64,000 bases of DNA from Bacteroidetes bacterium HGW-Bacteroidetes-10. GTDB lineage: Bacteria > Bacteroidota > Bacteroidia > Bacteroidales > UBA932. The notes below the pieces were generated by a model that saw nothing but the letters and a program-made list of their open reading frames with translations, made no database searches and was not told the DNA's origin. Positions 1 to 1,751 of the stretch are shown here, piece after piece. The DNA lies in contig PHDT01000011.1 of NCBI GenBank assembly GCA_002842695.1, positions 1 to 64,000 on the forward strand, given 5' to 3'. Within the stretch, counting starts at the first letter, position 1. Each line of letters begins with the position of its first letter. The translations under genes were made by a program, and so were the position numbers.

Positions 1-85
1 CCAGCATTGCTGAAACCTAAACCAGTCAACATAAACAGCGATTAGTCATGCAAGGGTGAAAAACCTTTGCCGAAGGCTAACTCTC

Positions 86-104
86 GCCGGGCATCCTGCC
101 CGGC
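86..104. repeat. Short GC-rich inverted repeat
   Basis: A perfect 7-bp stem (GCCGGGC/GCCCGGC) with a 5-nt loop. It stands in non-coding DNA, has no T-run behind it on either strand, and so does not look like an intrinsic terminator. It is the first of several palindromes between 80 and 480. Confidence 0.6.
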
Positions 105-191
105 ACCATTAAATCTAGTCACAGAGCCACTTTCGCCCCCATTTTCAATCAAACCCCGTACGGCCGTAACCCTCAGATCGTCAGCTAATAG

Positions 192-228
192 CACTTAGTC
201 CCCGCGGATCATCCGCGGGGACTAAGTG
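192..228. repeat. 37-bp perfect palindrome
   Basis: Two 18-bp arms, perfectly complementary, around a single central C at 210. The arms run from CACTTAGTCCCC to GGGGACTAAGTG. A further 9-bp inverted repeat (AGAGCCACT at 123-131, AGTGGCTCT at 225-233) overlaps its right end, so two alternative hairpins are possible. No T-tract follows on the plus strand. It could be an extragenic palindrome or a binding or recombination site; the sequence does not say which. Confidence 0.8.
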
Positions 229-252
229 GCTCTCCCTGATAGCTAGCTAGTT

Positions 253-306
253 ACAGCGATGCGGGTAGATTGCGAAACGATGACAGCAATGCGAGTGAAA
301 TGCAAT
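253..306. repeat. Imperfect direct repeat, 30-bp period
   Basis: ACAGCGATGCGGG at 253 recurs as ACAGCAATGCGAG at 283, and the following bases are also alike, giving two roughly 24-bp copies with about three quarters identity. The second copy runs into the left edge of the inverted-repeat element that starts at 307. Confidence 0.5.
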
Positions 307-482
307 GTCCAGGTTCTGCAAAAGCAAAATCGCAGTTTTTTAGCATATTTCTGATGTGTTTTCAGGAAAAAGGCTGAGGACTGTTTGACGAGCGTAGCGA
401 GGAGTCCCGCAAGCCCCTGAAAACACGAAGAAATAGGCGTTAAAAAAAAGCTGCGTTGCGTTGCAGAACCTGGACATGCAAT
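300..482. mobile_element. MITE-like foldback element with TIRs and TSD
   Basis: A 169-bp non-coding element (307-475) bounded by perfect 15-bp terminal inverted repeats, GTCCAGGTTCTGCAA at 307-321 and its exact complement at 461-475. It is flanked on both sides by the same 7 bases, ATGCAAT, at 300-306 and 476-482. Inside the termini the arms stay largely complementary (the TGTTTTCAGG near 356-365 pairs with CCTGAAAACA near 415-424), so most of the element folds into one long imperfect hairpin with a loop near 382-403 that holds GAGCGTAGCGAG. No transposase is encoded. Terminal repeats plus a flanking duplication are the hallmarks of a miniature inverted-repeat element moved in trans. The mobilising transposase is unknown. 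Confidence 0.7.
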
Positions 483-491
483 ATCAGAAAT

Positions 492-526
492 AAAAAAAGT
501 GCCCGAAATCGTTCGGACACTTTTCT
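492..526 (-). terminator. Intrinsic terminator for the aminotransferase gene
   Basis: On the minus strand a 12-bp stem with one mismatch (AAAGTGTCCGAA pairing with TTCGGGCACTTT, 4-nt loop) runs straight into a T-run (plus-strand A-run 492-498). It lies about 25 nt past the stop codon of the aminotransferase. Confidence 0.8.
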
Positions 527-548
527 GTTTGATGACTCGGCGAATCGC

Positions 549-1751
549 TTATTTGGTGGTTCTGCCGGGATATTGCTTAAGTGCAACTTCGAGGCATTTC
601 ATTGCAGCCTTGAGGTCTTCAACTTTGAGGACGTATGCAATACGAACTTCGTCGGTGCCTTTGCCCGGAGTTGCATAGAAACCTGCAGCTGGTGCAACCA
701 TTACTGTCTGGTTTTCATAGCTGAACTCTTCGAGCAGCCACTGAGCAAATTTATCGCTGTCGTCGATAGGTAGTCTGGCCACAGCATAGAAGGCACCCAT
801 AGGTTTAGGGCAGAATACACCCTCCATCTTGTTAAGAGCTTCAATAAGCACATCTCTTCTGTTCATATACTCAGAGCGTACTCCGTCAAAATACTCCTGA
901 GGAGTGCTGAGCGCACCTTCGGCTGCAATCTGTCCGTAGGCAGGAGAGCAGAGACGGGCCTGAGCAAATCTCAGAACGCCTGTCATTACATCTTTGTTTT
1001 TGGAAACGATTGCACCAATGCGAACGCCGCACAGGCTGTACCTTTTCGAAACTGAGTCAATAAGAATTACATTCTGCTCAATTCCGGGTACGTGCATTGC
1101 AGAGAAGTGAGGCTCGTCTGTGTAGCAGAACTCTCTGTATACCTCGTCAGAATAGAGGAAAATGTCATGTTTCTTAGCAATCTCACCAAGTCTTATGATT
1201 GACTCTTTTGTGTAGAGTGAACCGGTAGGGTTGCCCGGGTTGCAGACAATGATACCTTTGGTCTTTGGTGTGATGTATTTTTCGAATTCGCTTATATCAG
1301 GAAGAGCGAATCCGGTTTCAATTGTTGTTGGAACAGGCACAAGCTTAACATCGTTCTGAAGAGCGAATGAGTTGTAGTTTGTGTAGAACGGCTCCATTAC
1401 AATAACCTCGTCGTCCGGATTGCAGGTAACTGCGAGAGCAATCTGAAGAGCCTCGCTGCCCCCTGTTGTAATATTGATTTCGTCTGCAGTTACGTTAATG
1501 TTAATACCCTGGTAGTATTTTGCAAGACCATCTCTGTAGGTCTCAATACCGGCACTGTGCGGGTAAGATACAAGATCAAGAGTATTGTTTTTAACAGCGT
1601 CAAGGGCCTCCTTTGGTGATGCGATGTCCGGCTGTCCAATGTTCAGGTGATATACCTTAATGCCTCTCTTCTTTGCTGCCTCGGCATAAGGAACAAGTTT
1701 TCTGATTGGTGAAGCAGGCATCGTTTTTGCCTTTTTCGAAAGTGTAAGCAT
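549..1751 (-). CDS. Class I/II PLP-dependent aminotransferase
   Basis: A 400-residue fold-type I aminotransferase, cytosolic, of the AspC/PatA-like subgroup common in Bacteroidota. NPGNPTG lies at 171-177, SDEVY at 201-205 and the PLP lysine at K236 in DSVSKRYSLCG. A C-terminal arginine near 376 (EVRIAYVLK) is placed to hold the substrate carboxylate. Length is normal. The substrate cannot be told from the sequence; aspartate or another amino acid with 2-oxoglutarate is likely. It follows the PBP4-type peptidase on the same strand by 20 nt and ends at a clear terminator, so the two probably form an operon. A second Met at residue 11 is a possible alternative start. Confidence 0.88.
   Translation of the reverse strand: MLTLSKKAKTMPASPIRKLVPYAEAAKKRGIKVYHLNIGQPDIASPKEALDAVKNNTLDLVSYPHSAGIETYRDGLAKYYQGININVTADEINITTGGSEALQIALAVTCNPDDEVIVMEPFYTNYNSFALQNDVKLVPVPTTIETGFALPDISEFEKYITPKTKGIIVCNPGNPTGSLYTKESIIRLGEIAKKHDIFLYSDEVYREFCYTDEPHFSAMHVPGIEQNVILIDSVSKRYSLCGVRIGAIVSKNKDVMTGVLRFAQARLCSPAYGQIAAEGALSTPQEYFDGVRSEYMNRRDVLIEALNKMEGVFCPKPMGAFYAVARLPIDDSDKFAQWLLEEFSYENQTVMVAPAAGFYATPGKGTDEVRIAYVLKVEDLKAAMKCLEVALKQYPGRTTK

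Follow-up and report, generated by a model that had tools for sequence, protein, structure and literature searches.

A noncoding foldback sequence of 169 bp lies near the start of the window (the whole 64,000-nucleotide stretch of DNA that was analyzed), and it raises the question of what kind of element it is and how it came to be there. A first-pass annotation had read it as a MITE-like element on the basis of perfect 15-bp terminal repeats and a flanking 7-bp duplication. Both features are present at the positions that were described: GTCCAGGTTCTGCAA occupies 307 to 321, its exact complement occupies 461 to 475, and ATGCAAT stands outside both ends at 300 to 306 and 476 to 482. The sequence given for the loop, GAGCGTAGCGAG, is also found, at 390 to 401 within the hairpin tip. 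Folded as DNA, the 169-base hairpin reaches −49.7 kcal/mol compared with −18.9 ± 2.6 kcal/mol for 200 shuffles (z = −11.7), none of which was equally stable. The features of the locus are listed here.

307 to 475, plus strand: the complete 169-bp hairpin, with its orientation taken from the tip
307 to 321, plus strand: left arm of the outer stem, which differs between copies; the terminal repeat of the first-pass annotation
461 to 475, plus strand: right arm of the outer stem, exact complement of 307 to 321
323 to 459, plus strand: core common to the copies of the genus, limits approximate; compared between this genome and its sister at three other sites
376 to 410, plus strand: tip, one form of the stretch found across phyla, GAGGACTGTTTGACGAGCGTAGCGAGGAGTCCCGC
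390 to 401, plus strand: apical mini-hairpin, GA-GC-GTA-GC-GA-G
300 to 306, plus strand: ATGCAAT, left copy of the 7-bp repeat, with no counterpart at the other 30 copies tested
476 to 482, plus strand: ATGCAAT, right copy of the 7-bp repeat
495 to 524, minus strand: terminator-like hairpin of the adjoining aminotransferase gene; the element lies beyond this terminator
549 to 1751, minus strand: neighboring gene, which we take from its sequence to encode an aminotransferase; the element lies past its 3′ end

The inverted repeat extends outward beyond 15 bp, over 26 nt that are 85% complementary (296 to 321 and 461 to 486), and ATGCAAT is almost its own reverse complement (5 of 7 positions). 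Because it sits inside this imperfect, near-self-complementary palindrome, the direct repeat is partly a by-product. The reading that we favor, at a probability of about one half, is that the element is a REP-like mobile DNA hairpin, represented here by an old and now immobile copy, whose arms would be re-copied from each other by fold-back DNA synthesis.

Two other repeats occur in this part of the window. One, beside the element at 45 to 107 (AAACCTTTGCCGAAGGCTAACTCTCGCCGGGC..GCCCGGCACCAT), is also found beside a half element on another contig of the genome (L020; C17, about position 77671) and in the sister genome (L100). The other is a long hairpin at 195 to 227 (CTTAGTCCCCGCGGATCATCCGCGGGGACTAAG), present with changes at the same sister locus.

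Copies, arms and flanking repeats within the genus

The foldback is dispersed, noncoding, and multicopy, as had been supposed. The source genome (G000; 2.41 Mb in 42 contigs) holds six copies including that of the window, the other five lying two on the same contig strand and three on the other; beyond these, it contains just short, weak matches. By BLAST, 15 of 41 genomes hold copies, and these 15 belong to a single genus. A covariance model built from 31 copies gave at least 160 matches (E ≤ 0.01; a few hairpins are counted on both strands) in at least 19 of the 25 genomes of the genus, these counts being lower bounds with at most 114 candidates scored per genome. Across the order, the model matched 4 of 198 genomes, namely the source genome and three weak cases. 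Of the BLAST loci, the 31-copy alignment covered the 30 listed, and duplicates (L007 and L016) and partial copies (L020, L035, and L036) were left out.

The copies have the inner ≈140 bp in common, whereas the outer stem differs from one copy to another, its two arms remaining complementary. The 15-bp terminus of the window copy, which would have been expected to recur, is unrelated to that of four of the five other copies in the genome; in the fifth (L004), the arms are 12 of 15 identical. Over the 31 copies, arms pair with their own partners at a mean score of 26.4 versus 13.5 between copies, and only 20 of 31 left arms find their best partner in the right arm of the same copy because several copies share GCTCACC-type arms and some stems have decayed. 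No terminal inverted repeat is thus common to the copies of the source genome; subfamilies of other species do share arms, and in recently amplified sets (G019, G001/G013, and G005), the arms are conserved together with the core. Of the 31 copies, the window's own is the only one with a 7-bp direct repeat abutting the hairpin (no more than 3 nt from either stem end), against 0.13 expected from cross pairs. Over wider flanking intervals, direct repeats of at least 7 bp occur at 2 of 31 copies (0.6 expected). Because the termini vary and the duplication is seen at a single copy, neither the terminal repeat nor the duplication defines the family.

These observations bear directly on the first-pass annotation, which had anticipated a 7-bp duplication at every copy and an insertion sequence with the same ends; no such insertion sequence was found in a search that covered Y1 transposases. 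A classical MITE would derive from a DDE insertion sequence by internal deletion and would carry terminal repeats that are fixed, together with a 7-bp duplication. Such an origin would fit the perfect ends and paired ATGCAAT of the window copy as well as the similar arms of L004, and some subfamily-B hairpins lie within a larger repeat that may itself be a true MITE. The other copies contradict a MITE origin: stems differ between them while remaining self-paired, four termini in the source genome are unrelated, and 30 of 31 copies have no abutting duplication. We therefore rejected the standard MITE, which we regard as very improbable. ERIC, YPAL, NEMIS, and bcr1 have fixed termini, whereas the termini of the hairpin family differ per copy and are without a common duplication. 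These elements, which the part of PMC3733652 that deals with them lists as bacterial MITEs, and other bacterial MITEs are alike to the family in size, foldback, and intergenic position.

The larger repeat around subfamily-B hairpins (L241 in G013 and L274 in G001) has terminal repeats of the GGATCACGATCAAAAGTTG type and, by eye, a possible 7-bp duplication, TCAAGTA. A comparison of subfamily-B sites among G001, G013, G023, and G014 yielded no clean duplication, the sites being too mosaic.

In G001 and G013, several pairs of copies with unrelated flanks have only the hairpin in common, other pairs sharing longer flanks, so the whole hairpin is a unit that has spread, sometimes within larger repeats. 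The idea of a mobile element is therefore correct in outline: mobility is supported in one recently amplified subfamily, the standard MITE form is not, and the family is defined by its conserved tip, carried on stems that vary but remain self-complementary, and not by terminal repeats and a target duplication.

The conserved tip across phyla

The tip follows the pattern GAGGACTGTYYGA..GCGNAGCGAG..TTCCGCAG and recurs in about seven phyla. Run over one genome per species for 84,980 species, the pattern yielded at least 118 stretches, and taxa were taken from the record titles of the 80 matches listed. These titles name Bacteroidota, Clostridia, Pseudomonadota, Nitrospirota, Campylobacterota, Desulfobacterota, and Patescibacteria. 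Outside the genus, the matches listed include Lachnospiraceae, Nitrospira, Thauera, Methylotenera, and Barnesiella, as well as Sulfurimonas, Thiotrichaceae, Desulfobulbaceae, Patescibacteria, and Saccharibacteria. Many carriers are metagenome bins; some are isolates, such as Thauera phenolivorans, Barnesiella sp. An22, and Pseudobutyrivibrio sp. YE44. The family is sporadic, the exact tip pattern being present in 5 of the 295 genomes sampled from the order and in 2 of 398 of a Pseudomonadota sample (centre genome included), and reversed-pattern controls gave zero matches in both samples. Viral contigs gave 0 matches to the exact genus pattern and 1 to the general pattern, searches of plasmids, phages, and E. 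coli gave, at their sensitivity, no match to the 36-nt tip, and strings of the tip sequence had no match in the papers searched. A few tip matches, such as L341 in Actinomycetota, may be due to chance.

Self-pairing of the stem extends beyond the genus. There, among the matches listed, 84 of 96 distinct loci go on with TTCCGCA, which is not part of the pattern, and own-arm pairing averages 24.3 versus 10.2 for cross pairs (n = 84, among the matches listed). Pairing exceeds the cross-pair 95th percentile at 65 of these 84 loci, and the arms of the remaining 19 do not stand out. Loci with short flanks and near-duplicates were dropped from the mismatch and arm-pairing sets, and 16 pattern loci were set aside by eye as belonging to the genus. 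In genomes of other genera, no recurrent gene was found next to the tip: ORFs that run through the element made up the largest clusters, and the other clusters had at most six loci.

The apical hairpin reads CGNAG in 92 of 117 general-form tips, other forms being CCCGAAGGG, CCGAGCGCAGCGAAGG, and further longer self-complementary versions. Of 79 tips of the genus type, 70 close the mini-hairpin with an outer C-G pair and 6 with G-C. Because the apical hairpin varies while staying self-complementary, the conserved part is the bubble between two variable stems. The tip thus consists of a conserved, asymmetric bubble (GAGGACTGTYYGAG / CGAGTTCCGCAG type) beneath a small apical stem-loop, usually C-GNA-G. 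As a whole, the family comprises noncoding DNA hairpins of several phyla in which the near-tip stretch is conserved and the stem sequence varies yet pairs with itself.

In Thauera, between genes read as cysD and cysN (L424–L445 and L449), tip hairpins are present or absent according to species. This interval often holds two hairpins that point in opposite directions, and the apical hairpins come in many lengths.

Age, gene context and pairing as DNA or RNA

The flanks of all six copies in the source genome were located in relatives, and many of those stretches were read. In the sister genome, G020, five of the six sites hold the element, which a contig end truncates at one of them. The remaining site, that of the window, retains the left arm and a stretch resembling the beginning of the core, the core itself apparently having been lost, so the difference there would read as a loss. 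Presence of the element at orthologous sites in all relatives had been named in advance as counting against a transposable element; with the element or a remnant at six of six sites, G020 goes part of the way in that direction, and no insertion specific to the source genome was found at the six sites compared with relatives.

Between the two genomes, the core is identical at 133 of 137 positions at the POR site, 132 of 137 at the L005 site, and 122 of 138 at rplQ. Together, these give 387 of 412 (94%), compared with 443 of 643 (69%) at fourfold-degenerate sites of four neighboring genes (Fisher p ≈ 7 × 10−25), with 74 of 89 in rplQ itself. At two of the three measured orthologous sites, the core thus changes far more slowly than neutral sites. 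The fba copy looks more diverged, and the purH copy, compared in part only, looks nearly identical. With slow cores at some sites and divergence at others, some copies look selected and others look to be decaying. The window copy itself shows no sign of conservation. At the POR site, the arms of the sister species are just 3 of 16 and 9 of 16 identical and are still complementary. None of 28 genus copies placed with an ORF finder lies inside a gene, and the 25 with genes on both sides comprise 16 between convergent genes, 9 between tandem genes, and 0 between divergent ones. Core identity of 97% at two sites, versus 69% at neutral sites, suggests that a mobile hairpin has acquired a use, and some copies appear to be kept for a host function at gene ends.

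In another species of the genus (G021), the same two intergenic sites hold a different hairpin, with the core CTTCGGGCTTGTGCGTCCTC..CGGCCGAATCGCCC and with arms that differ between its two copies (L081 and L102).

Slow change in the core, conserved unpaired residues, covarying stems, and placement past gene 3′ ends would also be expected of a structured noncoding RNA or 3′-UTR element whose fold is selected at the RNA level. Such selection, acting on the strand in the orientation of the tip, should tolerate G·U pairs. Isolated mismatches in the stems of the genus comprise 31 G·T and 30 A·C (67 copies), an equality that favors pairing as DNA; outside the genus, there are 78 G·T and 53 A·C (97 copies; p = 0.036 with kinship between copies ignored), an excess that leaves room for RNA pairing. 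A 1.1-Mb genome (G318) has five copies whose left arms are 27 to 34 of 38 identical, and their best-scoring runs contain 221 Watson–Crick pairs in 223 positions with no G·T. Diverged arms that pair near-perfectly without G·T suggest that one arm was copied from the other, as far as can be judged from the alignments. Orientation relative to the neighboring gene is mixed as well, with the copies of the source genome in the same sense at purH and rplQ and in the opposite sense at POR and fba. No Rfam family reached its gathering score in window positions 1 to 1000 or in the eight tip loci scanned, and matches below threshold were rejected given that any long hairpin produces them. We consider selection on RNA unlikely as the main explanation, though the strongest of the rivals. 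If it were correct, the element might be the GUCCY-hairpin, an RNA motif of ambiguous status described in 2010 from Bacteroidetes and Proteobacteria (PMC2864571; Weinberg 2010). The likeness (a hairpin, those two groups, ambiguous status) is to the name and table row in that source rather than to its consensus; read on its opposite strand, the tip gives ..AGTCCTC.., a sequence that the name would fit, and the GUCCY-hairpin could be the same motif on the other strand.

Known palindromic repeats, a possible mover and proposed fold-back copying

REPs of the GTAG and CGTC kinds are nearest in kind to the hairpin family. The GTAG kind (REP, BIME, and REPIN, associated with RAYT) resembles it in being short, noncoding, palindromic, and dispersed, in lying past gene ends, and in sometimes forming inverted pairs. 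As presented in the sections of PMC3733652 that concern them, these REPs conserve the stem and the GTAG foot, whereas the hairpin family has a free stem and a conserved near-tip bubble, and the stem feet of the 31 copies, compared by eye, have no GTAG in common. REPs of the CGTC super-family, including rickettsial RPE-4/6, are likewise palindromic, found in several phyla, and, in the same sections, without a dedicated transposase, some lying inside longer palindromes (PMC3733652). They have an 8 to 9 bp stem, a 4 to 5 nt loop, a CGTC foot, and a CCA tail, whereas the element, of about 170 bp with a variable long stem, is without such ends.

A REP in the usual sense would be mobilized in trans by a Y1 (RAYT- or TIRYT-like) transposase. 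Y1_Tnp genes are present in 19 of the 25 genomes of the genus, a family hairpin follows a Y1 gene in G001 at a distance of about 265 bp (L191; C3:32000–34800), and the opposed pairs of Thauera hairpins recall REP dimers. However, that hairpin is the sole case in the 20 loci read from 38 Y1 matches: the other 19 have no family copy, many being flanked by different hairpins, and in this the family would depart from RAYT-linked REPs. A Y1_Tnp match is lacking in 6 of 15 tip-bearing genomes, some of them incomplete. No Y1 protein of the long type seen in the genus was found in the at least 118 tip stretches, with a profile that recognized just 8 of 14 control Y1 loci, so that short IS200-type Y1 enzymes would be missed. 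Together with the lack of a common GTAG foot, these results make the Y1 account rather improbable. With one neighbor in 20 loci and otherwise no link, we do not favor the Y1 transposase as the mover, and the search of Y1 transposases revealed no mover of the hairpin.

TIRYTs, described in the relevant part of PMC3733652 as Y1 genes flanked by hairpin terminal repeats, have a parallel in the same genomes in hairpins with gene-specific arms, which, unlike the family, have no tip and flank a gene. These are the Y1 genes of about 270 aa at L188–L207, many of which have a hairpin on each side, with arms that change from one gene to the next. A piece related to these flanking hairpins lies in the right flank of L002.

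Alternatively, the tip might insert into existing palindromes, such as bidirectional terminators, in which case the arms would be the target's own. Some REPs do lie inside longer palindromes (PMC3733652, in the part cited above), and copies occur at gene ends between terminators. Those terminators, however, appear whole outside the element by eye, and the perfect 45 to 47 bp arms in three of the five G318 copies are not terminators. Among 23 Thauera cysD–cysN loci, 11 have a tip, 10 have no tip and, by eye, no matching long palindrome, and 2 are unplaced. We find insertion of this kind distinctly improbable, more so than mobilization by a Y1 enzyme.

In the fold-back reading that we favor, the tip would be what the system recognizes, presented as a DNA hairpin or cruciform to a factor that acts in trans. 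A strand, nascent or otherwise single, would fold back at the very stable tip and prime on itself, and one arm would be re-copied from the other, so that the stem remains perfect. In DNA, a GNA triloop with a C-G closing pair is unusually stable. The same synthesis would also yield inverted copies of flanking DNA, terminators included, around some copies. A change of both arms in one step is suggested by pairs of species rather than of strains.

Inverted flanks, inverted terminators, and new palindromes are the traces expected of such template switching. When the left flank outside the element was compared with the reverse-complemented right flank, 13 of 31 copies scored above the cross-pair 95th percentile (1.5 expected; the 13 include sites represented by both of two species), and 1 of 31 exceeded the 99th. 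Eight of the 13 are clearly better than in direct orientation, whereas in 5 the direct orientation scores almost as well or better, and terminators are palindromic in any case. At the POR site of the source genome, 26 bases past the stop codon match, at 25 of 26 positions, the inverse of the end of the convergent gene, stop codon included. By eye, the terminators flanking the POR site in G010 and G020 look like inverted copies of each other, and in one Thauera genome (L431), the tip itself has been turned into a new palindrome about GGACAGTCC.

More tentatively still, we propose a class of DNA hairpins, shared across phyla, that would be inherited as the tip and one arm. The bubble and GNA mini-hairpin would serve as a turn-around signal for fold-back synthesis, the second arm, and sometimes flanking terminators or gene ends, would be newly copied each time, and a putative widely shared protein would read the bubble. 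If true, inheritance of this kind would give near-perfect stems of any sequence and palindromes that grow outward.

A tip of ≈31 bases kept across phyla on stems unrelated between lineages points to a common hairpin-reading factor, as yet unnamed. The family also offers a natural test of whether stem covariation arises via DNA template switching or via selection on RNA, and covariation produced by template switching bears on the reading of covariation as proof of a functional RNA.
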